A stretch of DNA of 42,635 nt. Source: a virus. The stretch is taken from positions 1 to 42,635 of the IMG/VR virus record IMGVR_UViG_3300005555_000002; one strand, written 5' to 3'. A program made the position numbers and the translations under genes. The notes below the pieces were generated by a model that was not told the DNA's origin, did not search any database, and was given only the letters and a program-made list of their open reading frames with translations. Positions 18,537-42,577 of the stretch are shown here, piece after piece (the stretch's first letter is position 1; each line of letters begins with the position of its first letter).

Positions 18537-18545
18537 GAGCAGGTG

Positions 18546-19274: not shown

Positions 19275-19510
19275 TGTTCGACCCCGCGTTCGTTGACTCC
19301 ATCTCGAAACTGGGTGCCCTCGGGTTTGCCGTCATGGCAGTCCTCGGGTTCACGTCAGGTCTTATCCGGGTGGGGCGCCTCGTGGACAAGCGGGAGACCC
19401 AACTGATCACTGAACGCGACGAGTGGAGGTCAATCGCCGAGACATCGATCGCCCAGTTTGGGCGCCTCACGGATGTCCTTGAAGCAACATCAAAGAAGAT
19501 GCTGCCATGA
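19274..19510 (+). CDS. Small membrane protein (possible holin-like)
   Basis: A 78-residue protein with one N-terminal hydrophobic segment, residues about 13-32 (LGALGFAVMAVLGFTSGLI), followed by a charged helical tail with coiled-coil character (KRETQLITERDEWRSIAETS). This resembles class III-type single-span proteins found in lysis regions, but also virion membrane proteins. It overlaps the previous stop and the next start. Function is unproven. Confidence 0.45.
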   Translation: MFDPAFVDSISKLGALGFAVMAVLGFTSGLIRVGRLVDKRETQLITERDEWRSIAETSIAQFGRLTDVLEATSKKMLP

Positions 19511-19719
19511 AGGAGTGGTTGGCAAATACGTTCGGGTTGCGACCTGAACAGGTCCCAACGACACAGCCCGAACTCATCAAGGCGAAGGTACAACTCAAGC
19601 GTGAACTGTCCCGCGCTGACAGGGCGATCCAACTCGCTATGAACCACGCGGATGAACTGTTCAACAACCAGGGGCACTACAAAGGCCCAGAACGACGACG
19701 ACGGCGGAGGCACACATGA
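19507..19719 (+). CDS. Hypothetical small helical protein, basic tail
   Basis: A 70-residue protein with no recognised family. The middle is a predicted helix (LIKAKVQLKRELSRADRAIQ) and the end is highly basic (PERRRRRRHT). It is coupled to both neighbours by ATGA overlaps within the lysis-region operon, which supports it being real. Confidence 0.5.
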   Translation: MKEWLANTFGLRPEQVPTTQPELIKAKVQLKRELSRADRAIQLAMNHADELFNNQGHYKGPERRRRRRHT

Positions 19720-20210
19720 AGGCCCGGGACTTCTCGGTATGGTTGATCGTCGCGCTCGTCGTGGGTCTGTCCGCGCTGCTGTTCGATCCTGACACGACGT
19801 TGACTATCCTGGGCATCGGGATCCCGGTCGCGATCGCCTCCGCGATCGTGTCAACCATCTACCTGTACCGTGTGTTCCAGAAGCAACCGCTGCCCAGGTC
19901 CCGCTTCTTCGCGATGGTCCTTGAGTTGTTCTACGCGTTGATCCTCCTGGGTGCTTGGGTTGGGTACCTGACAGTGGCGCGCCTGACCAATGCTGCTGTG
20001 CCCCTTCCTCCTTTGACGACCACGACGCCCATCTCGGCGCTGTTGGTCATCATCGTCTTCATGTCCCCTGCGCGCTTCGCGATCGAGGTCTGGCGTGTGC
20101 GCAGACAACCGCCTCGGGAAGGACCTGTGGCGGAGACCCATCTCGATCGACTGGAGGTGCATGAGGTCGAGGACGTAGTAGCAAGTGACGTTCAGGACAG
20201 AAAGGAGTAA
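19716..20210 (+). CDS. Membrane protein with about four spans
   Basis: A 164-residue protein with hydrophobic segments at residues about 7-24, 28-50, 63-88 and 103-122, and a hydrophilic acidic C-terminal tail of about 40 residues. It lies between small lysis-region genes and the cysteine peptidase, so a role in lysis is plausible, but it matches no holin family that I recognise. Confidence 0.5.
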   Translation: MKARDFSVWLIVALVVGLSALLFDPDTTLTILGIGIPVAIASAIVSTIYLYRVFQKQPLPRSRFFAMVLELFYALILLGAWVGYLTVARLTNAAVPLPPLTTTTPISALLVIIVFMSPARFAIEVWRVRRQPPREGPVAETHLDRLEVHEVEDVVASDVQDRKE

Positions 20211-20213
20211 CGT

Positions 20214-20786
20214 ATGGCATACCGACCGACATTCCGCAGGCAAGGAGACGGATCACGCTGTCAGTGGGCGAACTGCGGGCCTGCATCACACGCGATGGCG
20301 TCCCAGCGCGATCACAAGGGCGTGGATCCCAAGACGGCGGGTCCCTGGCCTCCCCTACCTTGGGAGATCAGGAACAAGATCAACGTGTACTGCCCAGGCA
20401 CGTCGTTGGAACAGAACCACGCTGCCTGCCTGGCACTGTTCGCGACGAACACGGCGATCCGCTACGCCCTCCCGTGGGCCTCATTCGCCTCGATGGTCAT
20501 CTCGGGCCGTGGTGCAGTCGTCGCGATCTCCTACGCGGTCATCGCACCGACCGCGTTCAACGCCTCGCCTGGGTTCATTGGGCGACACTCGGTGTACGTC
20601 AACGAGTACCGTGCCTCGGATGGCGCGTTCCTCGTCTACGACCCGCTCGCCGATCACCGCCGGGCAGGCATCCCTCAAGGACCTCAGTGGTGGCCCGGAC
20701 ATCTGCTCAAGGTCGCCGCAGGCGCGTATCCCGGGTGTGGATACGGCAAGGTGACGGGGTCCTACACGCGCGACACGGAGGCCTGA
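20214..20786 (+). CDS. C39-like cysteine peptidase, probable endolysin
   Basis: A 190-residue protein with the layout of C39/papain-like peptidases. CQWANCGPAS near residues 16-25 holds a Gln a few residues before the catalytic Cys-Gly. GRHSVYVNEY near residue 125 gives the His, and FLVYDPLAD near residue 143 gives the Asp of the triad. There is no signal peptide and no obvious cell-wall binding domain. A clear AGGAGT site precedes the ATG. Position among membrane proteins and a holin suggests it cuts peptidoglycan cross-links as the endolysin; a virion-associated peptidase is the alternative. Confidence 0.6.
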   Translation: MAYRPTFRRQGDGSRCQWANCGPASHAMASQRDHKGVDPKTAGPWPPLPWEIRNKINVYCPGTSLEQNHAACLALFATNTAIRYALPWASFASMVISGRGAVVAISYAVIAPTAFNASPGFIGRHSVYVNEYRASDGAFLVYDPLADHRRAGIPQGPQWWPGHLLKVAAGAYPGCGYGKVTGSYTRDTEA

Positions 20787-20787
20787 G

Positions 20788-20967
20788 ATGCCTGACCATC
20801 CCACCCATCCCGTCCACCCCGATCACCCGGTGGCGCCTGATGTGGACGCGCCGATCGAGGAACACCGGAAGCACGCCACCGCGATCCTCGAGGTGGACGA
20901 GTTCAAGCACAAGCCACCTGGGCACCCCGCCAAGGATGAGGACGAGTTCGAGATCCCGAACAACTAG
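20788..20967 (+). CDS. Hypothetical His/Pro/Asp-rich small protein
   Basis: A 59-residue protein whose first half repeats H-P-x-H-P (PDHPTHPVHPDHPVAPD) and whose second half is charged (EEHRKHATAILEVDEF, ending DEFEIPNN). It begins one base after the peptidase stop, and its stop overlaps the AGGAGG site of the holin gene. A metal-binding or linker role is possible but not shown. Confidence 0.55.
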   Translation: MPDHPTHPVHPDHPVAPDVDAPIEEHRKHATAILEVDEFKHKPPGHPAKDEDEFEIPNN

Positions 20968-20976
20968 GAGGACACG

Positions 20977-21294
20977 TTGGACCCACTTACCAATCCCGCC
21001 TACCTGCTGTTCGCAGCAGTCGCGCCCATCCTCATCGCGTTCCTCAAGCAGGATGGGTTCAGCAACACAGTCAACGCGCTGATCGCGTTCGTTGCCTACG
21101 TAGTCATCGGGATCCTGGGTGCGATCATGTCAGGCACGTCCCTGACACTCGAGAACCTGGTCCCGCTCATCACCATTGCCACGGTCGTCGGGACGGCGGC
21201 GTACTCGTTGATCTGGAACAACCTGGGTACGGGGGATGGAACCTCGCCCTCGTTGGACAGTCGTGTGACCACCGCGACGTCCGTGGTCAAGTAG
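20977..21294 (+). CDS. Holin (three-span candidate)
   Basis: A 105-residue protein starting at TTG with AGGAGG seven bases upstream. It has three hydrophobic segments, at residues about 8-24, 33-52 and 60-80, and a short hydrophilic tail. This is the topology and size of class I holins. It lies three genes after other membrane proteins and directly after the peptidase region. It would form the membrane lesion that releases the endolysin. Confidence 0.65.
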   Translation: MDPLTNPAYLLFAAVAPILIAFLKQDGFSNTVNALIAFVAYVVIGILGAIMSGTSLTLENLVPLITIATVVGTAAYSLIWNNLGTGDGTSPSLDSRVTTATSVVK

Positions 21295-21376
21295 GAAGGA
21301 GGGCGACACGGCGAAGGTCAGGTTCCGTTGGGGGCCCACAATGGGCACAAAGCACAACAGGACGGAGGTTCAGTTC

Positions 21377-21691
21377 ATGGCAGTCATCCAGGACGATCAG
21401 AAGGCCCAGATCGCGTTCGCCGAGACGGACGCTGCTGGTGAGGCAGTCGATGCGCCCGTCTCGTTCTCGACGGACGGCGCTGTCGGCGCGCTCGGCAACC
21501 CGGTGATCAACCTCACCACGGACGCCGATGGCAACTCGTGGGTCGAGGGCAACGACGTGGGCACGTCGGCGCTCACCGGCACCGCGACGAACGAGGACGG
21601 GACGATCGCCTCTGCCTCGATCACGGTTGAGGTCGTCGCGTCGGATGCGACCACCCTGACCCTGACGCTGGGGGCACCCGAGCCGAAGTGA
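21377..21691 (+). CDS. Ig-like beta-sandwich protein, possible virion decoration
   Basis: A 104-residue beta-rich protein (QKAQIAFAETDAAGEAVDAP, GTSALTGTATNEDGTIASAS, ITVEVVASDATTLTLTLG) resembling bacterial Ig-like domains common in phage decoration proteins. The ATG at 21377 has GGAGG at good spacing. The frame is open upstream through an ATG at 21341 to an ACG at 21308 that itself has AGGAGGG five bases before it, so the true start is uncertain. It is the last rightward gene before the terminator. Confidence 0.6.
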   Translation: MAVIQDDQKAQIAFAETDAAGEAVDAPVSFSTDGAVGALGNPVINLTTDADGNSWVEGNDVGTSALTGTATNEDGTIASASITVEVVASDATTLTLTLGAPEPK

Positions 21692-21701
21692 CCGTCTCAG
21701 T

Positions 21702-21799
21702 CGGTCGCTAAGCGACGAGAAACCCCCGGTCCGCACATTCCGTCGGATCGGGGGTTTCCGTGTCACAGCGACCGTTGTAGCCGGCTTGTGCGGGACGCT
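21702..21799 (+). repeat. Intergenic element copy E, built around the terminator
   Basis: CGGTCGCTAAG (21702-21712) matches the left arm of copy C, and AGCGACCGTTGTAGCC followed by CTTGTGCG (21767-21789) matches block 3. The two ends form an 8-bp inverted repeat (CGGTCGCT/AGCGACCG). Where other copies have the central TGATTRGGCAACTTT block, this one has the terminator hairpin. It lies at the convergence of the rightward and leftward transcription units. Confidence 0.55.
21720..21757. terminator. Bidirectional rho-independent terminator
   Basis: A perfect 9-bp stem, AAACCCCCG at 21720-21728 and CGGGGGTTT at 21749-21757, with T-rich sequence on one side and A-rich on the other, so it can act in both directions. 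It separates the rightward late genes (stop at 21691) from the leftward genes (last stop at 21798). Confidence 0.8.
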
Positions 21800-22076
21800 A
21801 CGGGGACGCGCCAGGACGCGATGTACGGGTCAAGACGTCGTCCCACGCACGATCGAGGTCCTCACTCGTGAAGACGATGCTGGTCAGGATCACGTTGCCC
21901 CTCAGTTGACGCCTCAGGATGGCGTACACCTGTTCCCTGATCGCGTCAGGCATCCGCTCCTTCCCCCACTCCCACATCGACACCTCGGGTTGGGCACGAT
22001 CGAGTAGGCGCGCCAGTTCTGTCTGGGTCAGGCCTGCCCGTTCGCGTAGCACCCGCATCGTCGTCTGGGTTCTCAC
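21798..22076 (-). CDS. Cro/CI-type helix-turn-helix DNA-binding protein
   Basis: A 92-residue protein starting at GTG with GGAGGGG upstream. MRVLRERAGLTQTELARLLD, RAQPEVSMWEWGKERMPD is a classic XRE helix-turn-helix (residues about 7-45). The C-terminal part is short and has no peptidase domain, so it is Cro-like rather than a self-cleaving repressor. It is the last gene of the leftward polymerase operon and overlaps the preceding gene by GTGA. A role as late regulator or Cro analogue is inferred. No integrase accompanies it. Confidence 0.75.
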   Translation of the reverse strand: MRTQTTMRVLRERAGLTQTELARLLDRAQPEVSMWEWGKERMPDAIREQVYAILRRQLRGNVILTSIVFTSEDLDRAWDDVLTRTSRPGASP

Positions 22077-22282
22077 CTGCCCCTCCACTTCGTGGGCCCC
22101 TGAGGCCTCCAGGTCGTTCCGCACTCGACGTGAACATGCTCCCTGGTATGTGCGTCATGCCCATGCTCGATGGTGCACGGGCAACCCCTCACGAGTTCGT
22201 CGCCTCGCGGGTACTTGACGCACCCGCGGTAGTGGATCCTGATGTTGTCACATTGACCAATGGCAGCGTTTGTGTTCCTCAC
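22073..22282 (-). CDS. Small Cys/His-rich protein, possible zinc binder
   Basis: A 69-residue protein joined at its start to the polymerase gene and at its end to the helix-turn-helix gene by four-base GTGA overlaps, which is good evidence that it is translated. Four cysteines (C11, C21, C34 and C36) and clustered histidines (IEHGHDAHTREHVHVEC) suggest a metal-binding knuckle. I recognise no family. Confidence 0.5.
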   Translation of the reverse strand: MRNTNAAIGQCDNIRIHYRGCVKYPRGDELVRGCPCTIEHGHDAHTREHVHVECGTTWRPQGPTKWRGR

Positions 22283-24741
22283 TTCACCTTCTCCATGACG
22301 CCCCAGTTGGACCCGACTTCGATGTCACACGAGAAGGGGATCCCGGTCGGGTCGATCGAGATATTCTGCTCGAACTCGTAGCGCAGGATCTTCGACGCCT
22401 CCTTGAGACGGGCCTTCGGGATCTCGAGCGCGACCGAGTCGTGGACGGCGAACAGGACATGCCCATCGAACTCGTGTGCCCTCGCTGAGATGCGCGTCAG
22501 TGCCTCCAGGCACAGGTCAGACGCGACGGCCTGGATCGGGGTGTTGACTGCCTGCCGTCGCGTGTGCCCGACGCCTGCGCGAGTGATGTACGGGAACCGC
22601 CGGCGACGACCGAGCGGTGTGTCAACGAACGAGTCCCGGATGGCGTTCTTCGCCGTGTCCTCCATCCACTGGCGCAACACCGGGAACCCCTCGAGGAAGC
22701 GACGCACGTACAACTCTGCCTGCTCGACTGACCAACGCTCACCACCCAACTCGTCGGTCAGGTAGTCCATCTCAGGTCCTTCAGCGAGCGCCTTCGCTGA
22801 TCGCCCGTACAGGATCCCGAAGTCAACGCGCTTGGCCATGTACCGCTCGCCCGACGAGATCTGATCCGCGGGCTTGTGGAACATCGCGACGGCAACCTCG
22901 CCGTGGATGTCACGCCCCTCCCGGAAGACCTCGATCATCGCTGGGTCCTGGGACAACCAAGCGGCGACCCGCAGTTCCAACTGAGCGTAGTCGACCTCCA
23001 CGAACCAATGCTTCTTGTCGGGTGCCGCGAACCCAGCGCGGACATTGTGTTCACCGTACGCCGGGATGTTCTGGAAGTTGGGTTCGCGACACGACAGGCG
23101 CCCGGTCGCCGTGCCTGCCAGTTGGAACGATGGGCGGATCCTGTGATCGTCGTCCATCTTCCCGAGCAGGCCTGCGACGTTCGTCTGCAGGACCTTTGTG
23201 TCGTTCCGGAAGTCGATGATGCGCTGCAGGATCAAGGAGCGGTCGTCGTCCTTTCCCCAGAGGCGGATCATCGCCTGCAGCGTCTCGCGGTCAGTCGACT
23301 GCTCCGCGCTCGCTGATCGCATGTACCCCTTCCGGACGGCGAGGCGCACGAGGTCGCCCATCGACTCGGTGATGTACTTCTTGACCTGGGCAGGGGATCC
23401 CGGGTTGAATCCCTCGCCCGCGACGACCTCGAGTGCCGTCCTGTTCGCATCGATGCGCTCCTCAAGCATCGCGCCCATGCTGCCGAAGAACGAGGCATCG
23501 ATGTACGTACCATGGTACTCGGCGGCGGCGAACGCCTTGGCACCTGGCATGAGGATGCGATCGTGGACGCCCATGGGATCGAACCCGTCCCCTGGTTCGT
23601 CGCGCTGCTCGTCAAGGAGGCGCTGTCCCACGTCGAACCACAGGCGCGTGGTGTTCGCGCAGTCTTTGCCTTGGTAGTCGTACAGCGCGGCGTAGTCGCG
23701 GTCCTCCTTCGGGGTGGCGTAGAACTCGTTGAAGTCCCAGTGGTAGTCGGGCACGTCGTACCACGTCCGGGCGATGTCCTTGAGCCCGTGCCCGAGGTAG
23801 CGTCCGATCGGGCGCTCATCGTGCAGGTAGTGCAGGAGCATCGTGTCGCCCATGAGGATGTCGCCCCACGCGCGTTCGAACCGAGGCCCGAAGTAGTGCA
23901 GCAGGAACTGGAGGTCGAACTTCGAGTTGTGGAAGACGAACCTCGTGTCTGCCGTGGTCATGAACGACCACAGCAGTTTCTGGATGTCGGCGTACCCGAC
24001 GAGTTCCTCGGGCACGATCACTGACCACGCCGAACCCTTCGCGTCCTGCACACCGAACCCGATTGACAGCAGGTCATCCTTGATCGGGTGGAACCCGTAC
24101 GTCTCGAGGTCACACGACACGACGGACGCCTTGCTCATGTCGTTGAGTGCTGACCACAGTTCGTCGCCTGTCGTGACGACCTGGGTCTCGATGTCCTGTG
24201 CGGGTAGCGGTGCGTCTACCGTCAACCACTTCTGGATGTCGAACAGCAGGTCCACGAACATCTCGGGATCACGGAGGACGAGTGCGGGATGGATCGTGGG
24301 AACGTGCAGGACCTTACGCTTCCCGACCTTGACCCACTGTGCGATCCCCCGCATCTTGGTGATCGGCATGACCCGTGGTGCCTGAGTCAACGAGGTCAGT
24401 GACACGCCACCGGTCGTCAGGACCTTGGTCGGGCGTACCTCCTCCAACTCCTCCATGAGGCGATGCTGGCAGGCCTTGATCGGGAGCATGCCAGGCGTCT
24501 TGTTGCCGAGCGGATGACGGACGACTGCGTTCGTGTAGTACACGTCGTCTGGATCCTGCCCGCAGGCCCGTAGCACCTCGCGCAGCAATGCGCCCGCGTC
24601 ACCGACGAACGGGCGCCCGCGGCGCACCTCGTTCTGCCCAGGTGCTTCGCCGACGATCGCGAGGCCCCCATGTGGCCCGTACCCGTCAACGACCGGGCGA
24701 TCGTTGAGCGGGCACTTCTCGCAGTCACCGAGACGAGTCAT
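22279..24741 (-). CDS. polA: Uracil-DNA glycosylase / family A DNA polymerase fusion
   Basis: An 820-residue replicative polymerase. Residues 1-185 match the family 4 uracil-DNA glycosylase fold: CEKCPL, AIVGEAPGQNEVRRGRPF, YTNAVVRHP and ACQHRLMEEL. The third iron-sulphur cysteine of the family (in K-C-R-P) is Arg here. Residues about 205-400 are the 3'-5' exonuclease with SCDLETYG, FHNSKFDLQFL and YQGKDCANT intact. The polymerase domain has motif A (EVDYAQLELR), motif B (RYMAKRVDFGILYG) and motif C (AVHDSVALE). The ATG at 24741 has GGGAGG upstream; the frame extends further but only as a shadow of dpdA, which overlaps by 17 bases. Confidence 0.92.
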   Translation of the reverse strand: MTRLGDCEKCPLNDRPVVDGYGPHGGLAIVGEAPGQNEVRRGRPFVGDAGALLREVLRACGQDPDDVYYTNAVVRHPLGNKTPGMLPIKACQHRLMEELEEVRPTKVLTTGGVSLTSLTQAPRVMPITKMRGIAQWVKVGKRKVLHVPTIHPALVLRDPEMFVDLLFDIQKWLTVDAPLPAQDIETQVVTTGDELWSALNDMSKASVVSCDLETYGFHPIKDDLLSIGFGVQDAKGSAWSVIVPEELVGYADIQKLLWSFMTTADTRFVFHNSKFDLQFLLHYFGPRFERAWGDILMGDTMLLHYLHDERPIGRYLGHGLKDIARTWYDVPDYHWDFNEFYATPKEDRDYAALYDYQGKDCANTTRLWFDVGQRLLDEQRDEPGDGFDPMGVHDRILMPGAKAFAAAEYHGTYIDASFFGSMGAMLEERIDANRTALEVVAGEGFNPGSPAQVKKYITESMGDLVRLAVRKGYMRSASAEQSTDRETLQAMIRLWGKDDDRSLILQRIIDFRNDTKVLQTNVAGLLGKMDDDHRIRPSFQLAGTATGRLSCREPNFQNIPAYGEHNVRAGFAAPDKKHWFVEVDYAQLELRVAAWLSQDPAMIEVFREGRDIHGEVAVAMFHKPADQISSGERYMAKRVDFGILYGRSAKALAEGPEMDYLTDELGGERWSVEQAELYVRRFLEGFPVLRQWMEDTAKNAIRDSFVDTPLGRRRRFPYITRAGVGHTRRQAVNTPIQAVASDLCLEALTRISARAHEFDGHVLFAVHDSVALEIPKARLKEASKILRYEFEQNISIDPTGIPFSCDIEVGSNWGVMEKVK

Positions 24742-25543
24742 GTGCTGCCTCCCGGAATGCCTTGACGTTGTACTTGGCGATCTCCCGCTGCCGCGTGTCC
24801 ATGACCTGATCGAAGTAGTTGGGATCACGCGTCGGGTAGGTGGGTGAGGCGCCTGGGCGCAGGCGGATGTCTCGCAGGGCGTACACGAACGGTTTGGCGC
24901 TGTCGGTCGATCGGATCCACGGGAACACCCGCGCGAGGTCACGCAGCACGGTCAGGTCTCGTGCCCACCCGAGCAGATGGGCATCGAACGGCAACCAATC
25001 CTTGAACGGTTCAAGGAACGCGAGCAGCGCATGGTGCCCGCCTTCCCACCAGTCGTAGTCCTTCGACACGCCGATGGTCAAGCGCCGCGGGAACAGGTCG
25101 GGCCTCGCTGCCTGTGCCTTGACGTACTCGGTCACCAGGTCCATGAAGCACCCCTGCCAGTCCTCGAACTCGCGTGCCTGAGGGACGAGCATGAACGTCG
25201 GGAACGTCGCCTCCTGCAGGAGGTCCTGCCCCTCGACCAGCAGGTAGGAGAACGCGTCCTTGGCACCTTGCACCGTCGCGTCCCGATCGAACAAGGTGTC
25301 CGGGATCACGACCTCGTCCACGCGCAGCGTGTGGGCCTTGAGGAGCAGGTCCTTCATGGCCTCGCCTGCGTTGTTCTCGTGTGCGCCGTTGTCAAGGACG
25401 AGGTAGGACCCGCGCAGGCGTTGCTCCCGGTAGAACGACGCGTACGCGGGGTTGTCGAGGAGGTGCGACAGGATCAGGTGGAACCGGTCACGTCCTGCGT
25501 ACTCCTCGAGGTGACGGATGGGTGGGATCAATGCTGCCTTCAC
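24725..25543 (-). CDS. dpdA: DpdA-like 7-deazaguanine DNA transglycosylase
   Basis: A 272-residue protein like phage DpdA, a relative of tRNA-guanine transglycosylase that exchanges guanine in DNA for a 7-deazaguanine. YLVLDNGAHENN near residues 47-58 carries the conserved Asp and His/Glu. VIPDTLFDRD, FMLVPQAREFEDW, LTIGVSKDYDWW and AHLLGWARDL are the successive barrel strands, with acidic and Gly residues where the family has its active site. There is no zinc site and no tRNA-binding domain. It starts at GTG, overlapping the upstream gene by GTGA, and runs into the polymerase gene. All enzymes for the base lie just upstream. Confidence 0.8.
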   Translation of the reverse strand: MKAALIPPIRHLEEYAGRDRFHLILSHLLDNPAYASFYREQRLRGSYLVLDNGAHENNAGEAMKDLLLKAHTLRVDEVVIPDTLFDRDATVQGAKDAFSYLLVEGQDLLQEATFPTFMLVPQAREFEDWQGCFMDLVTEYVKAQAARPDLFPRRLTIGVSKDYDWWEGGHHALLAFLEPFKDWLPFDAHLLGWARDLTVLRDLARVFPWIRSTDSAKPFVYALRDIRLRPGASPTYPTRDPNYFDQVMDTRQREIAKYNVKAFREAAHDSSR

Positions 25544-25821
25544 TTGGTCCTTCTCAGTTCCTCAGCGGTCACCATCTCGGCAGTGCGAGCGTACCCGGCG
25601 ATGTCCACGAGGTTGTCCCGCCCGGGCCTGTTCATCTCCCTGGACAGTTTCACCGCGACCATCATCAGCGCGACGGTGCGGGGAGGAATATCAGCGACAC
25701 CCAGCATGGCACCCCAGATACGCCCCGTCCGGGAGAAGTCATCGATCGGGTGACCGTAGGCGTCCTGCCTGGGCCCGTCTACCAGGCGGTTCGCCTCCTC
25801 GAGGATCGTCTCACTGAACAC
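25540..25821 (-). CDS. DUF6378-like protein (MazG-like helical)
   Basis: A 93-residue all-helical protein with the pattern RQDAYGHPIDDFSRTGRIW, VALMMVAVKLSREMNRPGRD and DNLVDIAGYARTAE. This matches the DUF6378 phage family. Its K-x-x-R-E...D-N-x-x-D-x-A-G-Y core recalls all-alpha nucleotide pyrophosphohydrolases, so a nucleotide-handling role is possible. The GTG at 25821 has GAGG six bases upstream; a TTG at 25833 is an alternative. It overlaps queC and dpdA, placing it inside the modification operon. Confidence 0.65.
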   Translation of the reverse strand: MFSETILEEANRLVDGPRQDAYGHPIDDFSRTGRIWGAMLGVADIPPRTVALMMVAVKLSREMNRPGRDNLVDIAGYARTAEMVTAEELRRTK

Positions 25822-26566
25822 CGCTTGCCTCAAGGAACTCAGTGGTCAGGTTGGCGTACTCGGTCGGGTCAGCGCGTCCGGTGATCAGCGCGGCATCGAT
25901 CAGCGCCTCACGACGCTCGGTGCACGTCCCGCACGTCCCGCAGTGCACGTCGCCTCCCTTGTAGCATGACCACGTGTCCTCGATCGGCACGGACAGGCGC
26001 TGGGCCTTGACCGCGATGTCCGACTTGGTGCTCATCAAGTACGGTGTCGCGATCCTCGGCGTCTTGGTCGTCTCGTCCCACCTGTTGCCCGAAGTGAGTG
26101 CTGCAGCAAGCGCAGCGACGAACTCGGGACGGCAGTCGGGATAGATCGCGTGATCACCCGCATGGGCAGCGAACGCGACGACCTCGGCGCCTTCTGCGAC
26201 TGCGACACCGTAGGCGATCGACAGCATGATGGCATTCCGGTTCGGGACGACCGTCACCTTCATGCTCTCGTCTGCGTAGTGCCCGTCAGGTACTGGCGTG
26301 TTACTGGTCAGTGACGACGGACCCAGGATCGCGGCGAGTGGTTCGATACTAGCGCTCAGGCCCGCCTGGGTGCCGAGGAGGACGATGCTGTGCCTCGCAC
26401 CTGCGCGATGGGCCAACAACGCTGCTGACTCGAGTTCCTTCCTGTGCCGCTGCCCGTAGTCGAAGGACAGGGCGTGGATGAGGTACCCGAGGTCGGCGTA
26501 GTCGTACAGGAGCGTAGACGAGTCAAGGCCTCCACTGAGGAGGACGACGGCGTGCTTGAGTTCCAT
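25811..26566 (-). CDS. queC: 7-cyano-7-deazaguanine (preQ0) synthase QueC
   Basis: A 251-residue enzyme that converts 7-carboxy-7-deazaguanine to preQ0 with ATP and ammonia. AVVLLSGGLDSSTLLY is the PP-loop ATP motif at the N-terminus. VVPNRNAIMLSIAYGVA and HAGDHAIYPDCRPEF are family blocks. The C-terminal zinc site is complete (SCYKGGDVHCGTCGTC, four Cys). Length fits standalone QueC and there is no fused amidotransferase (Gat) domain, so archaeosine-type products are not indicated. The ATG at 26566 has GGGAGA upstream; the open frame extends further without support. Confidence 0.93.
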   Translation of the reverse strand: MELKHAVVLLSGGLDSSTLLYDYADLGYLIHALSFDYGQRHRKELESAALLAHRAGARHSIVLLGTQAGLSASIEPLAAILGPSSLTSNTPVPDGHYADESMKVTVVPNRNAIMLSIAYGVAVAEGAEVVAFAAHAGDHAIYPDCRPEFVAALAAALTSGNRWDETTKTPRIATPYLMSTKSDIAVKAQRLSVPIEDTWSCYKGGDVHCGTCGTCTERREALIDAALITGRADPTEYANLTTEFLEASGVQ

Positions 26567-26619
26567 GTTGATCGGGTCTCCCTTCTGGTAGTAGTCGCTG
26601 CGCTCAATGCGTCGAGGCA

Positions 26620-26757
26620 CTACTTCTTCTCGTTGGCGTACAGCGCCGCTACCTGTGCCTGTGCCTTCTCCTGGGTCGGGTGGGTGCCCATGACTTGCCC
26701 AGTCGTCGCCTTGACGACAACGAACTTGGGACCCCTCTTCATCACCTTGTACGGCAT
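26620..26757 (-). CDS. Small basic protein of 45 residues inside the que operon
   Basis: The sequence starts MPYKVMKRGPKFVVVKATTG, then HPTQEKAQAQVAALYANEKK. It looks like a two-strand hairpin followed by a helix, a pattern I have seen in short phage and environmental proteins with a conserved H-x-T-x-x-K-A-x-x-Q-x-x-A-L-Y ending. GGGAGG lies in the end of folE, eight bases before the ATG. Function unknown. Confidence 0.65.
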   Translation of the reverse strand: MPYKVMKRGPKFVVVKATTGQVMGTHPTQEKAQAQVAALYANEKK

Positions 26758-26760
26758 GAT

Positions 26761-27393
26761 CTACCTCCCGATCAGTCGTAGGAACTCGTCCTTGGTGGAC
26801 GCGTCCTGTTCGAATACGCCAGTCACCATCGAGGTGACCATCGTGCTCGAGGGTTTCTTGGTCCCGCGCATCGTCATGCACAGGTGCTCTGCCTCGATCA
26901 CGACCATGACCCCTTTGGGTTGCAACCCCTCCTGGATCACGTCAGCGATCTCCTTGGTCATGCGCTCCTGGATCTGCAGGCGGGCAGCGACCGCGTCCAC
27001 GATCCTCGCGAACTTCGACAGGCCCAGGACGCGCCCGTCCGGCAGGTACCCGATGTGGACCATGCCTTTGAATGGGAGCATGTGGTGTTCGCACAGCGAG
27101 TAGAACGGGATGTCCTTGACCGCGACTACCTGCTCGTATCCGTCGTTGGCGAACGTCTTGACGATCGCCCGGACATCGACGCGGTAGCCTGAGAGCAGTT
27201 CGTTGACGTACATCCGAGCGACGCGTCCAGGTGTCTCCTTGATCCCAGGTCGATCCACGTCTTCACCTGCTGCCGTGAGGATCCTGAGCACCGCGTCCTC
27301 GATGTCCAGCAGGTTGTCCACTGGATCCGCCTTGACCCGTCGCGCCAGGTTGTCCACGTCCTCGTCTGTCCACATCGGCACCATGTCGGTCAT
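26761..27393 (-). CDS. folE: GTP cyclohydrolase I FolE
   Basis: A 210-residue enzyme making dihydroneopterin triphosphate from GTP, the first step to preQ0. The zinc ligands are present in PFYSLCEHHMLPFKG and EHLCMTMRG (Cys, His, Cys). GIKETPGRVARMY and LGLSKFARIVDAVAARLQIQ are family signatures. The ATG at 27393 overlaps the queE stop by ATGA. Length and motifs are those of normal bacterial FolE, so it should supply the pathway independently of the host. Confidence 0.95.
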   Translation of the reverse strand: MTDMVPMWTDEDVDNLARRVKADPVDNLLDIEDAVLRILTAAGEDVDRPGIKETPGRVARMYVNELLSGYRVDVRAIVKTFANDGYEQVVAVKDIPFYSLCEHHMLPFKGMVHIGYLPDGRVLGLSKFARIVDAVAARLQIQERMTKEIADVIQEGLQPKGVMVVIEAEHLCMTMRGTKKPSSTMVTSMVTGVFEQDASTKDEFLRLIGR

Positions 27394-28109
27394 CAGTGTC
27401 CTCGCTCGTGTCCCCACGCCAGTGCGTGGACCTGTGGCAGGATGCGTGCCTCTGCGAGCGTGGGTTCTGCCTGGGCCCACGTGATCACGTCGAGGTAGCG
27501 GTCAAGGATGTCCTGGACGGTATCCACGCGTCCTCCCGCGTACGTCCCGTCTAGGCCGCCCATGAGGGTCACGACTGACAGGAAGAACGGGTGCCCAGGG
27601 AACAACCCAGGAAGGTCGGCCGCCCACTGTACGTCCTTCTGATCGCGGCACGGGACCTTGATCGCGACGGGTGCCCGCGTCTTGCTCAGGAACTCGGTGA
27701 GGTCGGTGATCGATGGGACCATGCCGGACGATGGCGGTTTGGGCGACACGACGACCTGGTCAACCCGGTTGATCCACTCCTTCCACTTGCTGCCTTGCGT
27801 CTCGACGCTGACGCGGTAGCCCGAGATGTGCAGCATGTCAACGAGTGCGCCTAGGTTGAACAGGAGCGGGTTGCCACCTGACAGGATGACGACAGGGGCC
27901 CAAGGTAGTTGGGTGAGGTTGGCAACGATCTCTGCCTCGTTCAAGCGGTGGGCGCTGCGCACCTCCTCGGGCAGGACGGCGTGTGACGAGTCACACCAGG
28001 CACAGGCGTAGTCACATCCGCCGAAGCGGACGAACAGGCACTGAGTGCCGACCTCAGGCCCCTCGCCTTGGATCGTGGGCCCGAAGATCTCAACGACCGG
28101 GAACGTCAT
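27393..28109 (-). CDS. queE: 7-carboxy-7-deazaguanine synthase QueE (radical SAM)
   Basis: A 238-residue radical SAM enzyme that contracts carboxytetrahydropterin to 7-carboxy-7-deazaguanine. IFGPTIQGEGPEVGTQCLFVR is the typical start (interrupted here for length), GGCDYACAWCDSSHA holds the CX3CX2C cluster motif, and VVILSGGNPLLF is the GGxP-type SAM-binding strand with N replacing the more common E. VVSPKPPSSGM binds substrate. ATGA overlaps on both sides couple it to queD and folE. Confidence 0.93.
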   Translation of the reverse strand: MTFPVVEIFGPTIQGEGPEVGTQCLFVRFGGCDYACAWCDSSHAVLPEEVRSAHRLNEAEIVANLTQLPWAPVVILSGGNPLLFNLGALVDMLHISGYRVSVETQGSKWKEWINRVDQVVVSPKPPSSGMVPSITDLTEFLSKTRAPVAIKVPCRDQKDVQWAADLPGLFPGHPFFLSVVTLMGGLDGTYAGGRVDTVQDILDRYLDVITWAQAEPTLAEARILPQVHALAWGHERGH

Positions 28110-28471
28110 GACTCCTCCTGGTCGTACTGGACCGAGTTGCCCTTCCCCTCGTGGACGATCACGATGAGGTGGTGCATGTGCCACCCCGCCCTGATCTCAT
28201 CGAACAACCACCGGGCGATGTTCTCAGCAGATGGTGCGAACGAGAACAGGGCATTGAGACCGCGATCACCTCCTGAGTGGTCGAGACGGCGGATGATCGA
28301 CTTGACCGCGCCGAAGTCAGGCCCCCACCCGTAGTCATCGAGATCCGTTTCTGTGTACTTCCAGGTTGCCTCGATGCGCCAGGAGTGCCCGTGCATGTTG
28401 TGGCACTTGTGCAGTGGAGGCCCGTTGCTGTGGGCCGCTTCGACTGTCTCCTCGACGTGTGCAGTGAACAT
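28106..28471 (-). CDS. queD: 6-carboxytetrahydropterin synthase QueD
   Basis: A 121-residue member of the pyruvoyltetrahydropterin synthase family. Zinc ligands are His in VEAAHSN and the two His of MHGHSW; the catalytic Cys is in HKCHNMHGH (C-x3-H-x-H). LDHSGGDRGLNAL gives the Asp-His pair, and IVHEGKGN the terminal Glu. All key residues are present. It would turn dihydroneopterin triphosphate into carboxytetrahydropterin. It starts three bases after the queF stop. Confidence 0.92.
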   Translation of the reverse strand: MFTAHVEETVEAAHSNGPPLHKCHNMHGHSWRIEATWKYTETDLDDYGWGPDFGAVKSIIRRLDHSGGDRGLNALFSFAPSAENIARWLFDEIRAGWHMHHLIVIVHEGKGNSVQYDQEES

Positions 28472-28474
28472 CAG

Positions 28475-28924
28475 TCAGTGCCCCAGGTAGTAGTTGCGGG
28501 GTGGGATGCCAAGGAGGATGTCGCCCCTACCGTCGCCCCTCATGGCGACCGCGACGATCGAAACGCCGCCGCGGGCCTTCTGCGTCACGTCAACGCGGAC
28601 CCACATGGGCTTGACTTCCTCCATGATCTTCTTGGCGATCTCGTCGGCGAGTGACTCCACGAACGCCGCGGTGTCTCGGAGTGACGTGAGGTACATCTTC
28701 CAGGACTTCGACTCGATGCAGAGGTCCCGAGGAGCATAGGTCACGTCGATGACTTCGAAGTCGGGCTGTCCGGTGATCGGGCACATTGAGGTGACCTCGT
28801 CGGACGTCATCCGGACAATGTCGACCGCCGGTGCCGGGAAGGTATCGAGGCCTCCGAACACCTGTTCCTTGGTCCCGAGGTAGGCGGGTTGAGCACCCTG
28901 GAACGGGTCGATTCTCAAGTGCAT
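28475..28924 (-). CDS. queF: NADPH-dependent preQ0 reductase QueF
   Basis: A 149-residue single-module QueF, predicted to reduce preQ0 to preQ1. SMCPITGQPDFE holds the catalytic Cys and, seven residues on, the Asp. ESKSWKMYL is the NADPH-binding motif that separates QueF from the amidinotransferase-like QueF-L. The catalytic Glu is kept in AAFVES, but the His usually before it (F-H-E) is Val. AAGGAG ends only one base before the ATG at 28924, so the in-frame TTG at 28918, seven bases away, may be the real start; a longer frame from 28954 would bury the ribosome site. It is first in the que-dpdA-polA operon. Confidence 0.88.
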   Translation of the reverse strand: MHLRIDPFQGAQPAYLGTKEQVFGGLDTFPAPAVDIVRMTSDEVTSMCPITGQPDFEVIDVTYAPRDLCIESKSWKMYLTSLRDTAAFVESLADEIAKKIMEEVKPMWVRVDVTQKARGGVSIVAVAMRGDGRGDILLGIPPRNYYLGH

Positions 28925-28956: not shown

Positions 28957-29070
28957 GTCAGAATCGCGCACAAGGCGCTACAACCGGTCGTGTAGCGGTG
29001 ACGTTCTCGTGACTGGGTGATTAGGCAACTTTCTGCTTCAACCGGGCTTAGCGTCAGTTTCGATCACCAG
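28957..29070 (-). repeat. Intergenic element copy B, upstream of queF
   Basis: On the minus strand: block 1 CGCTAAGCCCGGTTG (29053-29039), central block AAAGTTGCCTAATCA (29032-29018) and block 3 GGTTGTAGCGCCTTGTGCGC (about 28985-28966). CGCTACA/TGTAGCG inside block 3 forms a 7-bp stem with an 8-base loop. It lies about 30 bp upstream of the queF ribosome site and downstream of the DUF669 gene, at the entry to the modification operon. Confidence 0.6.
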
Positions 29071-29086
29071 AATCCGACCAGTTTCG

Positions 29087-29128
29087 GCGGGGCAGATTAT
29101 GCAGGGGGAAGTGCATAATCTGCCCGCC
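29087..29128. terminator. Strong hairpin after the DUF669 gene, no U-tract
   Basis: GGCAGATTATGC (29091-29102) pairs with GCATAATCTGCC (29113-29124), and the outer GGCGG/CGCC extends the stem to about 16 bp with one bulged G. The loop is AGGGGGAAGT. No T-run follows on either strand, so this could be a factor-assisted terminator, an RNA processing site or a 3'-end stabiliser separating the early operon from the que operon. Confidence 0.5.
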
Positions 29129-34756: not shown

Positions 34757-34794
34757 GTCGCACCCGCGAACCGGGGGAGGAACGCGGGTGCGAC
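34757..34794 (-). other. Perfect 12-bp hairpin at the predicted 5' end of an mRNA
   Basis: GTCGCACCCGCG (34757-34768) and CGCGGGTGCGAC (34783-34794) are perfect complements with a 14-base loop. The predicted transcription start of the promoter at 34800-34829 is about 34793, so the stem would be the first thing in the transcript, an arrangement known to protect RNA from 5'-end attack. Confidence 0.55.
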
Positions 34795-34840: not shown

Positions 34841-34960
34841 CTACACGATCGCGTACAAGGTGGCTACAACGGTCGCTAAGGCCCGGTCACCCAGGTCGCC
34901 CTGTGATTGGGCAACTTTGAGCAGCAACCGGGCTTAGCGACCGTTTGAGAAGGGGTTCTG
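34841..34960 (-). repeat. Intergenic element copy C, with long inverted repeat
   Basis: On the minus strand: block 1 CGCTAAGCCCGGTTG (34939-34925), central block AAAGTTGCCCAATCA (34918-34904) and block 3 AGCGACCGTTGTAGCC then CTTGTACGCGATCGTG (about 34878-34844). The ends form a nearly perfect 19-20 bp inverted repeat (34868-34887 and 34927-34946, one inserted base). It is directly upstream of the internal promoter and 2 bp from the stop of the next upstream gene. This copy shows the symmetry most clearly. Confidence 0.65.
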
Positions 34961-35851: not shown

Positions 35852-35882
35852 CGGTGAACTCCTGTCCGTTGAACATGGTGAT

Positions 35883-35910
35883 GGGTGCCGGGTGGTCTAA
35901 CCCGGCACCC
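35883..35910. terminator. Perfect 10-bp intergenic hairpin, no U-tract
   Basis: GGGTGCCGGG (35883-35892) pairs with CCCGGCACCC (35901-35910) around an 8-base loop. It lies in the 73-bp gap between two leftward genes. No T-run follows, so it may be an attenuator, processing site or RNA stabiliser rather than a standard terminator. Confidence 0.45.
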
Positions 35911-35924
35911 AATGATCGTCCCGA

Positions 35925-39528: not shown

Positions 39529-39922
39529 TGTGTGTCTCCTTCAGGTGCCGGTCACTAACCCGGTCACGACGCTGCCTGATTGTGTCGCAGCAGCGTTTCG
39601 ACTTGTTCCGATCAGACGCCTCGTTTCTCGGTCCGCGGTTGTCTGCCCCACCGATCGTCCTTGCCAGGTCGTCATGCCTGGTAGGCGTTATCGCGACGGG
39701 CGACCCATCTCGTTAGGAGCGGGCGATTGCCTGATCGTGTGTAGAAGATCGTTCCTGATCATCCTTCCCGGGTTCCCGCACTCTGGCCCATCTTGCGATG
39801 TTCGGGCGTTCCACCTCTTGCGAGGTGAGGTACCTGGTGCCGTTAGGTCATCGGGGGTGTTGATCGAGGTTCGATATTCGGGATGTAAAGGTGCGTGAGA
39901 TCGGCAGGAGCGGATCTCGTTG
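39529..39922 (-). ncRNA. Long structured 5' leader of the leftward early operon
   Basis: About 390 bases between the predicted start site and the first gene hold no convincing coding frame on the minus strand. Hairpins seen: GAGATC/GATCTC at 39918-39897 at the 5' end; CACCTC-GCAA-GAGGTG at 39827-39812, a 6-bp stem with a GNRA tetraloop; and CCAGG/CCTGG near 39681-39664. A leader RNA involved in antitermination or translation control is inferred; plus-strand open frames here look like chance. Confidence 0.4.
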
Positions 39923-39927
39923 TGTCA

Positions 39928-39957
39928 ACACTAATGGCGTACGCTCAAACCTGTCAA
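39928..39957 (-). promoter_or_regulatory. Leftward early promoter with two TTGACA boxes
   Basis: TTGACA at 39957-39952 is followed after 17-18 bp by TTAGTG/TAGTGT. A second TTGACA starts at 39928, inside or just past the -10, as part of GTGTTGACAC. GTATTCTGAG (39960-39969) lies just upstream. The -10 is imperfect, but position at the head of the operon and the 5' hairpin fit. Confidence 0.5.
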
Positions 39958-40064
39958 GCGTATTCTGAGAGAACTAGTTCGGCAGTTTTGTGCCACATGA
40001 CGTACACGTATGCGGCATTGTCGGGCAAACCCCGTTCGGTCCGCACGTTCAGGTGTGCGGCGAC

Positions 40065-40095
40065 TTGACACCGCCGTGTGTTCTTCGCCTACGAT
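40065..40095 (+). promoter_or_regulatory. Rightward promoter before primase-helicase
   Basis: TTGACA at 40065-40070 and TACGAT at 40090-40095, spacing 19 bp. It diverges from the leftward promoter, so 39928-40095 is the early control region. If used, transcription begins near 40102, which excludes the GTG at 40078 as the start of the primase gene. CCGCAC/GTGCGG (about 40040-40060) forms a small stem just upstream. Confidence 0.5.
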
Positions 40096-40230
40096 CGTGC
40101 AGGCCTCGACTCTTCCTGTCCGGTCGGCGCGGCCCAGACGCCCGGTGTGGGATCGCGGTGGTGCGTTGATCACGTGCTACCGCCCACACCGGGCCTCGAG
40201 TTTGGACACCTCAAGGGCAGGAGGACAGGA

Positions 40231-42057
40231 CTGAGAGGTTTGCCTTCTTCCCGACACTCGTATACCTGGTGGGCCCAACACCTCGACCTTGAGGGGAGAC
40301 AGAAGACAGCAGACGGGTTCAAGGCCCAGTGCCCGTCCCACGGTGATGCGCAGGCGTCGTTACACGTCACGCGCAAGGGGTCAGACACAGCACCCGCGGT
40401 CGTCCACTGCTTCGCCGGGTGCGACTACGACTCGATCGTGCAGGCAGCATCGGGCATCACCACAGCGCCTCGTGTGACGCGCAGCAAGGCGCCTACAAGG
40501 GGTGAGAAGGTCGTACCCGTGCCTCAACAGTGGAAGGGGCGCGGCCTCGCTTGGTGGGCGTTCTACACGGGCCTGCCCATCGCGTTCGTGAAGACGCTGC
40601 CGATCGGCGAGACGGGTGACCTCGTCACGTTCACCTTCCCACACAACGGGATCTGCAAGCAGCGTGTGGTTGGATCGAAGCAGTACACGTGGAACAAGAC
40701 GGGTATCATGCCACCCCCGTTGTGGCCCATGCCTGAGGATGTGCTCGAGGACACGATCTACCTGACCGAAGGCGAGTCAGACGCCTCGATCGCCCGCTAC
40801 ATGGGCCTCGACGCGTACGGGATCACGAAAGGCGCGAACTCGTCGCTGTCAGGTGCCGTGTGGCGGTTGCTGCGCGATCGTGGTGCCTCACACGTCGTCC
40901 TCATGTTCGATCAGGATGAGGCAGGCGAGAAGGCGACCGACGAGTACACGGACGCGGCGATCGCTGCTGGGTTGTCCGTGTCCACGATCAGGCCCGTCCT
41001 GCACATCCTCGAGGGTGAGAAGGACCTGCGCGACTGGTTCAAACGAACGCACGGCGAGGAACCATTGCTGCTGACAGAGACGCAGGAGATCGCGTTCGAC
41101 CTCACGGCGTTGGCAGCATCCGTCCCACCGACCGTGCCATGGGTTGCCGAAGGATACTTCGCCAAGGATGCGCTCACGCTCGTATCAGGCCCACCCAAGT
41201 CAGGCAAGTCGACCCTCATCTTCCACTTCCTCGCCTGCCATGAGAACGAGGAACGGTTCCTGGGCGAGGACACGACACGCGGCACGGCGTTGCTGATGAC
41301 CGAGGAGGCACCCTCGACGGTCCTTGAGAAGGCAGACGCCTACAAGATCAAGCACCTCGCTGTGTTCCCACGATCAGTCGCCGCGCGTGCGGGCCTCACC
41401 TTCCCAGATGCACTCGATCGTGCAGTCCGTCAGGCGCGACGGGAAGGACGAGACGTGCTGATCATCGACACGCTGTCCGCCTGGGCCCAGTTCAAGGACG
41501 AGAACGACGCGTCCGAGGTGACCAAGGCAGTCACCGCCGTGCAGAACGCCGTAGCAGGCACAGGGATCTCGGTGATCGTCATCCATCACACGAGAAAGGG
41601 GGGCGGAGAATACGGTGAGGCCGTTCGTGGTAGTTCAGCGTTGTACGCACTCGTGGACGTTTCGATCGAGTATGGGTACAAGGACCCAGGAACGCGCACC
41701 GTCACCACGTCGTCACGCTTCGCCCAGGTGCCTGAACCGCTGTTCGTGAAGATGCCTCGAGTCGGTCACCTCGAGATCATGGATCGTGGTGAGCAAGCGG
41801 TGCAGGATGCCGGTCCCATCATTGCCCTCCTTGAGGAAGGCCCGAAGACGCGACAGGAACTTGAGGAGGCACTCAACCTGAGTGATCGATCGGGCGCGCT
41901 ACGGGACACGCTACGCGAGTTGGAACGCCTGCAGAAGGTGTCCGTCGAGGTCGGTGATCACGGGCGCAAGACGTACACGTTGCAAGGCAACGCTGCGCAA
42001 GGCGGAACGGTGTTCAAAGTCAGGAAGATCAGGCACCTGAAAGTGGTGTCTGAATGA
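40231..42057 (+). CDS. Bifunctional primase-helicase
   Basis: About 608 residues. A CHC2-like zinc finger (QCPSHGDAQASL and HCFAGCDYDS) begins the primase. The Toprim core follows: YLTEGESDASIARYMG and LMFDQDEAGEKATD. The helicase half is a RepA-like RecA fold with LVSGPPKSGKSTLIF, LLIIDTLSAWAQ and IVIHHTRKGGG, then a C-terminal winged helix (GPKTRQELEEALNLSD). The start is uncertain: AGGAGG at 40219 points to CTG at 40231 (or TTG at 40240), while GTG at 40174 or 40078 would lack a site. The sequence AGGAGGACAGGA-CTG mirrors AGGAGGACAGG-ATG at 36823. Confidence 0.85.
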   Translation: MRGLPSSRHSYTWWAQHLDLEGRQKTADGFKAQCPSHGDAQASLHVTRKGSDTAPAVVHCFAGCDYDSIVQAASGITTAPRVTRSKAPTRGEKVVPVPQQWKGRGLAWWAFYTGLPIAFVKTLPIGETGDLVTFTFPHNGICKQRVVGSKQYTWNKTGIMPPPLWPMPEDVLEDTIYLTEGESDASIARYMGLDAYGITKGANSSLSGAVWRLLRDRGASHVVLMFDQDEAGEKATDEYTDAAIAAGLSVSTIRPVLHILEGEKDLRDWFKRTHGEEPLLLTETQEIAFDLTALAASVPPTVPWVAEGYFAKDALTLVSGPPKSGKSTLIFHFLACHENEERFLGEDTTRGTALLMTEEAPSTVLEKADAYKIKHLAVFPRSVAARAGLTFPDALDRAVRQARREGRDVLIIDTLSAWAQFKDENDASEVTKAVTAVQNAVAGTGISVIVIHHTRKGGGEYGEAVRGSSALYALVDVSIEYGYKDPGTRTVTTSSRFAQVPEPLFVKMPRVGHLEIMDRGEQAVQDAGPIIALLEEGPKTRQELEEALNLSDRSGALRDTLRELERLQKVSVEVGDHGRKTYTLQGNAAQGGTVFKVRKIRHLKVVSE

Positions 42058-42060
42058 GAA

Positions 42061-42199
42061 GCGTGGCGAGCGTGGCGTTAGCGTGGCGTCACCATGGCGC
42101 GCCACGCTTGTCCATACCGGGGATTGAGCGTGGCGGTGCGTTGCCACACGTACTACGTACGTGGCAACCGCGCCACGCTCAATACCATGGACGCCACGG
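42061..42199. repeat. GCGTGGCG repeat cluster with cruciform
   Basis: GCGTGGCG occurs at 42061, 42070, 42081 and 42128 on the plus strand and inverted at 42100 and 42171, with a 7/8 match at 42192. ATTGAGCGTGGCG (42123-42135) pairs with CGCCACGCTCAAT (42171-42183); inside, GTTGCCAC (42140-42147) pairs with GTGGCAAC (42161-42168) and GTAC with GTAC around a TAC loop. The outer and inner stems give about 25 bp. It fills the gap between primase-helicase and HNH genes. A replication origin, packaging site or terminator are all possible. Confidence 0.65.
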
Positions 42200-42214
42200 T
42201 CAAGGTTGCTGATT

Positions 42215-42577
42215 ATGCCCAGGAGTCGAATCTGTGCGTCTTGTGGTACCGGGTTCGTTGGGACCGGGTCCTATTGCGCGAGGTGTGGTGATCACATGGG
42301 CAAGCGCAGCACCAAACCCGACCACCCGGTGTACGCGTCGCGTGCATGGCGTGACATACGCAGCACCATGATCAAGCAGCACGTGGCACAACATGGATGG
42401 ATGTGTCCTGGGTATGAACGTACACCACATGCAGCACAACGCTTGAGCATTGACCACGTGGTTGGGTTAGCACAGGATGGTCACGTGCTGTCTCGTGCTA
42501 ACTTGTCTGTGCTGTGTGTCTCATGCAACTCGAGGAAGTCGCACCGTGAGAACCGAGGAAGGAGAAGGAGTGCATAA
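42215..42577 (+). CDS. HNH endonuclease
   Basis: A 120-residue nuclease. An N-terminal zinc ribbon (ICASCGTGFVGTGSYCARCG) is followed by RLSIDHVVGLAQDGHVLSRA, NLSVLCVSCNSRKS, which has the HNH-like D-H, N and the C-x2-C zinc pair. By circular closure it lies upstream of the terminase genes, where HNH proteins help terminase cut cohesive ends. Codons ending in A/T are more common than elsewhere, a possible sign of exchange. AAGG precedes the ATG by eight bases. Confidence 0.8.
   Translation: MPRSRICASCGTGFVGTGSYCARCGDHMGKRSTKPDHPVYASRAWRDIRSTMIKQHVAQHGWMCPGYERTPHAAQRLSIDHVVGLAQDGHVLSRANLSVLCVSCNSRKSHRENRGRRRSA

Follow-up and report, generated by a model that had tools for sequence, protein, structure and literature searches.

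Gene Order and Location of the Array

The window is the whole of IMG/VR virus record IMGVR_UViG_3300005555_000002, which is 42,635 bp long and classed as linear. Up to about 21.7 kb, the plus strand encodes TerS, TerL, and the portal protein, followed by more ORFs. A long minus-strand block comes after, with DNA polymerase A, a queuosine-type pathway, and recombination genes. Past this block, the plus strand carries a primase-helicase (ORF 40078–42057) and then an HNH gene. The repeat array lies between these two genes, at the opposite contig end from TerS and TerL. The features of the locus are as follows.

40231–42057, plus strand: primase-helicase gene, with Toprim, a RepA-like AAA_25 helicase, and a C-terminal extension with weak winged-helix matches
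42060–42200, no strand assigned: proposed replication origin (the whole array), positioned with respect to the stop codon as in relatives; activity presumed
42060–42068, plus strand: iteron 1, AGCGTGGCG
42069–42077, plus strand: iteron 2, AGCGTGGCG
42080–42088, plus strand: iteron 3, AGCGTGGCG, forming a near-palindrome with iteron 4 around CCATGG
42100–42108, minus strand: iteron 4, AGCGTGGCG inverted, facing iteron 3
42127–42135, plus strand: iteron 5, AGCGTGGCG, within the left arm of the large hairpin
42171–42179, minus strand: iteron 6, AGCGTGGCG inverted, within the right arm of the large hairpin
42192–42200, minus strand: iteron 7, the near copy ACCGTGGCG, inverted, one mismatch
42123–42183, no strand assigned: two-tier hairpin of 13 + 5 + 7 bp, 61 bases, about 25 bp paired
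42296–42577, plus strand: HNH endonuclease gene (Pfam HNH 2.7e-6); the ORF runs from a GTG at 42161, and the ATG at 42296 is the likely start

The contig ends (1–113 and 42578–42635) lie between HNH and TerS, and this junction is contiguous in contigs L064 and L065. The 42,635-bp record is therefore probably complete, and the contig termini may correspond to the ends of the virion DNA. A viral contig of 12,001 bp (L067/L171) matches window positions 17282–28610 over 11,329 bp with 7 mismatches; a match to the array was looked for in that contig and not found. In the minus-strand block, the DNA polymerase A gene (22279–24942) has a UDG superfamily domain fused N-terminally (Pfam UDG 3.8e-19, residues 91–228; DNA_pol_A 2.2e-81). 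Consecutive QueC-like, GTP cyclohydrolase, QueE-like, and PTPS/QueD-like genes (25811–28471, minus strand) suggest 7-deazaguanine modification of the phage DNA.

The Repeat Array and Its Hairpin

The 8-mer GCGTGGCG is present in six exact copies in the segment 42061–42178, four on the plus strand and two on the minus strand, with two more copies elsewhere in the window, at 3298 and 38351. The unit extends to 9 bases, i.e., AGCGTGGCG; six of its copies, direct and inverted, are exact, and a seventh has a single mismatch. The array begins 3 bp after the primase-helicase stop. Iterons 5 and 6 form the core of the hairpin, the outer arms of which are exact over 13 bp (42123–42135 and 42171–42183), a length that ties for second place among the exact stems of the genome; the upper tier consists of 5 + 7 bp. 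These counts bear out the initial annotation, which described six exact copies and one near copy of an 8-mer in both orientations (recounted at 42060–42200), a two-tier stem of about 25 bp in a cruciform of about 60 bp (61 bases at 42123–42183), and an adjoining primase-helicase (stop at 42057; AAA_25 and Toprim_2 by Pfam).

The array is far above chance. Among 200 genomes simulated with a third-order Markov model, the densest 8-mer cluster reached four copies in 150 bp, versus six in the array. Only one other 8-mer in the window clusters to six copies, in a GAGGAAGA run at 29325 that lies within a low-complexity stretch. Folded as DNA, the segment 42040–42230 gives −56.6 kcal/mol (z −6.2), and folded as RNA, the segment 42058–42205 gives −88.9 kcal/mol (z −7.4). 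An Rfam scan returned four matches, none reaching the gathering score, and a tRNA scan at the array was empty or below threshold. No AT-rich unwinding element was found, the GC content of the 300 bp past the stop being that of the genome mean; the AT-richest noncoding stretch is at 39920–39979, ahead of the primase-helicase gene. GC skew gave no origin signal. A strong two-tier hairpin with GCCCGGTGTGGG arms also lies at 40137–40197, flanked by a TTGACA/TACGAT promoter-like pair on one side and the likely primase-helicase start on the other, and GGTGCGTTG is common to this hairpin and the one at 42123.

The Primase-Helicase and Its C-Terminus

The primase-helicase ORF opens with a GTG at 40078, though a start at 40231–40240, behind GGAGG, is more likely. 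Pfam places AAA_25 (3.2e-22, 79.6 bits versus a cutoff of 27) and Toprim_2 (1.3e-7, 32.4 bits versus a cutoff of 22.1) in the protein; it finds no SF3 or D5 helicase family at E ≤ 0.001. The top PDB match is 1g8y, RepA of RSF1010 (2.9e-6).

The C-terminus of the window protein (the domain spans about residues 530–659) has weak matches (E 0.04–0.1), mostly to HTH families. Its structural model is poor (pLDDT 32.9) and was left out of the fold search; the order of its elements resembles the helix-helix-helix-hairpin of the relatives. The C-terminal 125 residues of the relatives (40 relatives) gave a model of mostly high confidence, with pLDDT 83.9 and that order. Structural neighbors of the latter model are mainly winged-helix DNA-binding domains, with Z up to 7.0, and the best Foldseek E value is 0.028, these mid-range matches speaking for the fold level only. 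The origin-binding domain of P4 α is absent among the 50 structural matches listed. Because Pfam gave no consistent family for the 40 C-termini, the winged-helix assignment rests on the model and the fold matches. We read the window protein as a Toprim domain, a RepA-type ATPase, and, probably, a winged helix in one chain. The protein stands well apart from the sampled clade, with 20% identity to L172, and the search for a phage intermediate between the two found none.

Arrays behind Related Genes

Searches for the repeat itself were negative. A 23-base stretch taken from the hairpin is in no viral contig searched, and blastn of 42058–42300 against phages and plasmids returned short chance matches only (best E 3 and 0.2). 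Three direct copies of GCGTGGCG with short gaps were found in 101 stretches, in 75 of which both spacings are multiples of three, as expected of coding repeats. L113, alone of the 101, has a nearby inverted copy, but that copy is in a coding frame, and L113 was rejected as an array relative. A single-sequence search of the genome contigs found no relatives of the window primase-helicase, and an HNH scan for relatives also found none. L068 and L069, from a scan with the C-terminus, were discarded, as their matches lie inside a long unrelated ORF. The exact array was not found elsewhere, and therefore layout, not sequence, was compared among relatives.

For the survey, an alignment of six named-phage proteins was the query, and the best 80 of at least 578 viral loci were taken together with 67 genome loci. 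From these 147, eight were dropped (stop not placeable or less than 200 bp behind it), leaving 139 assessable loci. A locus counted as array-bearing when a single 7-mer was present at least five times, without mismatch, within 200 bp. Such arrays are found at 80 of the 139 loci, with both orientations in 78 of those 80. At least four copies are present at 108 loci; that is, 59 loci fall under five copies and 31 under four. Equal-length control windows from the same loci reach five copies in 10 of 2183 cases. After clustering at 90, 70, and 50% identity, arrays remain at 62/100, 40/69, and 28/42 loci, the last figure comparing with 1/645 control windows. Because other gene ends at the same loci reach five copies in only 3 of 560 cases (2 of 349 where the gap is at least 100 bp), the array does not reflect a general property of intergenic DNA. 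T7-gp4-like genes, a set of 62 loci so classed by a size of about 530–570 aa without domain typing, gave 0/56 among the assessable loci even at four or more copies.

The position of the array is also similar. The median start and end in relatives are +7 and +127 from the stop, and the window array runs from +5 to +141. Inverted iterons are common in array loci: inverted arms of at least 10 bp within 350 bp around the stop are found in 43/80 array loci, 12/58 others (one of the 139 loci being too short for this count), and 50/1092 control windows. The arms reach 12 bp in seven of the 80 array loci, and the 13-bp exact arms of the window are at the long end. The initial annotation had suggested comparing this gap with relatives, and the comparison places arrays at primase-helicase 3′ ends far above chance. 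It had also named absence of the motif from relatives, together with replication starting elsewhere and distant virion ends, as refuting its reading; the exact 8-mer array was indeed not found elsewhere, whereas the layout recurs. Judged by these sequence comparisons, a repeat array beside the primase-helicase stop is a family trait, with repeats that differ by clade.

Named phages were also scored. Twenty-five with a similar primase-helicase were hand-picked from tblastn or blastn lists, and the 7-mer array in the region from −250 to +350 around the gene stop was compared with 100 simulations. The window array, at +5 to +141, is equaled in 0/100 simulations. An array beyond all 100 simulations is found in 10 of the 25 phages, and the 7-mers differ between clades, as follows.

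1N2-2: CGGTACA, eight copies
CRP-406: GCTGGAA, seven copies
MW202867: TGGGACA, eight copies
XX1924 and PB15 (the latter an Alteromonas phage): TGAACCA, eight copies
CGphi29: GGGGACA, five copies
Zagie (a Microbacterium phage): TGTCACA, six copies
Fizzles: GTGACAC, seven copies
BirdInFrench: GTCACAC, six copies
16-3 (L193, a Rhizobium phage): GCGTGAC, nine copies, 118–304 bp after p101

The strict 0/100 test was not passed by the other 15, namely Fransoyer, which has a weaker array of four copies (2/100 simulations), and 14 more. Among the 14, L176 and L178–L183 are of the prim-pol type (L176, L179, and L181 by Pfam, the rest by annotation or hit description). The others are L184 (T7-gp4-like), L194 (a DnaB_N fusion), L174, L195, L188, L192, and L196. 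Failures thus include AAA_25 proteins fused at the N-terminal side to prim-pol or DnaB parts (L176, L179, L181, and L194), and L188, L192, and L196 fail though close to array-bearing phages. In three Microbacterium phages related to Fransoyer (L189:3779–3842, L190:3742–3828, and L175:3883–3978), the array is within the 3′ end of the gene, with a hairpin of up to 20 exact pairs. The 16-3 array, behind a prim-pol/AAA_25 gene, thereby offers a candidate origin for this classical phage; a literature search on Rhizobium phage 16-3 found no origin report.

Covariation of Repeat and Protein

The covariation set consists of 58 relatives with at least five copies, with proteins shorter than 480 aa and near-duplicates dropped. 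The correlation of repeat similarity with identity over the last 110 residues (r 0.50) is stronger than that with identity of the helicase core (0.317). Given the helicase core, the partial r between repeat and C-terminus is 0.455, a value reached in 0/2000 permutations. Thus, in the relatives, the repeat sequence covaries with the primase-helicase C-terminal domain.

A Proposed Origin and Its Alternatives

Because the array recurs at related gene ends and its repeats change with the C-terminal domain, we propose that 42060–42200 is the replication origin of the phage, or one of them. The C-terminus of the adjoining primase-helicase would bind it, and the array would lead to ring assembly and then priming. 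We put the probability of this reading at roughly 0.8. The initial annotation had favored an origin here, and the recurrent arrays and their covariation with the C-terminal domain lend that suggestion comparative support.

It is unlikely that the hairpin is, instead, a transcription terminator or an mRNA-stabilizing structure ending the primase-helicase transcript, with the repeats as by-products of hairpin evolution. The strongest hairpins of the genome do sit at operon borders, at 21701 (the end of the structural operon), 40121–40200 (before the primase-helicase), and 42121 (the array), and the RNA fold of the array region is strong, at z −7.4. However, no T-run follows the stem, and a terminator scan lists no site at 42060–42200. 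A terminator needs neither direct copies 1–3 nor identical 9-mers in separate stems, and it leaves the recurrence of the arrays and the C-terminal covariation unexplained. The hairpin could also serve termination alongside an origin function, by analogy with pRN1 (PMC4234260).

Three related nested-hairpin elements with arms like ACGGTCGCTAAG are found at 21700–21790 (plus strand), 28975–29062 (minus strand), and 34850–34950 (minus strand). In the direction of transcription, the elements are followed by GTTGTAGC..CTTGT.CG, and the element at 21700–21790 closes the structural operon. These elements are possibly a phage-specific terminator family. More perfect intergenic stems, of 12–14 bp and without T-runs, are present at 29090–29125, 34757–34794, and 35882–35911.

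Plasmid iterons serve initiation as well as copy control, and this double role would fit a regulatory or incompatibility array, in which binding of the primase-helicase or of a repressor to the iterons limits replication or transcription instead of starting it. The covariation with the C-terminus would be no obstacle, as it shows just a binding link. Yet we consider this explanation improbable, more so than a terminator: in most loci the array is behind the gene, not at its promoter, and the nearest precedents for that layout (PMC7581432) are origins.

A packaging signal (cos or pac) recognized by HNH and terminase, the secondary option of the initial annotation, is very improbable. The HNH gene does adjoin the array, TerS is at the other contig end, and the likely genome junction lies between HNH and TerS. 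However, L064 and L065 carry a homologous HNH-TerS-TerL set in the same order (TerL 49%), and the region around their HNH gene (2700–3700) contains no direct repeat present three times or more. In the named phages with arrays, the gene annotated next after the array is neither HNH nor terminase. In the window, about 430 bp, including the HNH gene, separate the array from the contig end. An HNH homologue precedes TerS in L064 and L065 too, and the HNH gene is taken as a neighbor that probably does not belong to the origin.

Comparison with Known Systems

P4 α carries an SF3 helicase, whereas the window protein has AAA_25; the P4 origin iterons are 8 bases long. RSF1010 uses three separate proteins, in contrast to the one fused protein of the window, and its RepB′ is not known to be a Toprim primase. 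There are also likenesses to both systems. P4 α, as presented in PMC4234260, unites a Toprim primase, a helicase, and an origin-binding winged helix in one protein, and its origin has repeats; the window shares the fused Toprim primase and helicase and the repeats, its winged helix being only probable. At the RSF1010 oriV, RepC is on the iterons, RepA unwinds, and RepB′ acts at stem-loops (PMC4234260), which resembles the RepA-type ring helicase, iteron binding, and primase stem-loops of our reading.

PMC4234260 also gives a precedent for the stem-loop. The pRN1 origin was deletion-mapped to a stem-loop of about 100 bp, 54 bp downstream of orf904, a primase/helicase/winged-helix gene, and a similar stem-loop has been proposed for phage BIP-1. 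The window likewise has a stem-loop behind a primase/helicase gene; pRN1, by that account, differs in being without iterons and in having an archaeo-eukaryotic primase and an SF3 helicase.

The closest layout is that of SaPI Rep and of Cch2 from SCCmec. According to PMC7581432, the C-terminal domain of SaPI Rep acts on the iterons that immediately follow its gene, and the isolated C-terminal domain of Cch2 binds the origin region downstream of its own gene, binding that needs the direct repeats. As there, the window has a cluster of short repeats, inverted beside direct, directly downstream of a predicted initiator helicase gene; the iteron-binding role of the C-terminal domain is described for SaPI Rep and Cch2 and, for the window counterpart, is proposed from the covariation and the model in relatives. 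The enzymes differ. SaPI Rep and Cch2 have DUF927 or Primase_Cterm/D5_N helicases and archaeo-eukaryotic primases, whereas the window has Toprim and a RepA-like AAA_25 in one protein. In a further phage, Sfi21 of S. thermophilus, the origin is a 302-bp noncoding element in the replication module (PMC6356513).

A Model for Initiation

Because the protein joins Toprim, a RepA-type ATPase, and a probable winged helix, we infer a course of binding, ring assembly, opening, and priming, every step of which goes beyond a repeat array tied to the gene and its C-terminus. Several primase-helicase molecules would bind the AGCGTGGCG iterons through the C-terminal winged-helix-like domain and would assemble the RepA-like ring at the array. 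The DNA would then be opened at the palindromic half, perhaps as a cruciform, with the inverted iterons helping. The Toprim domain would prime on the exposed strand, and the family A polymerase of the phage would take over after priming.

A broader proposal, to which we give somewhat less than even odds, is that phage proteins with Toprim or prim-pol, RepA-like, and winged-helix parts are self-loading initiators that travel with a private iteron array as one cassette. Repeat and C-terminal domain would diversify together, so that a phage would not fire the origins of its relatives. The inverted-iteron hairpin would double as the primase start. A literature search that reached few subscription papers found no description of an iteron array following a phage primase-helicase gene of the Toprim/AAA_25 kind, and a claim of newness built on that negative stands on weak ground.

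For the phage of the window, the analysis names a 141-bp candidate origin and a likely initiator. Origins are unknown for most tailed phages known only from metagenomes. The layout rule, a repeat of 7 to 9 bases, direct and inverted, behind a RepA-like primase-helicase, would supply many of these phages with a candidate origin that can be tested, and the pairs of repeat and C-terminus are a natural set for deciphering DNA recognition by this domain. If the cassette proposal is true, the origins of many uncultured phages would be readable from the 200 bp behind the gene.
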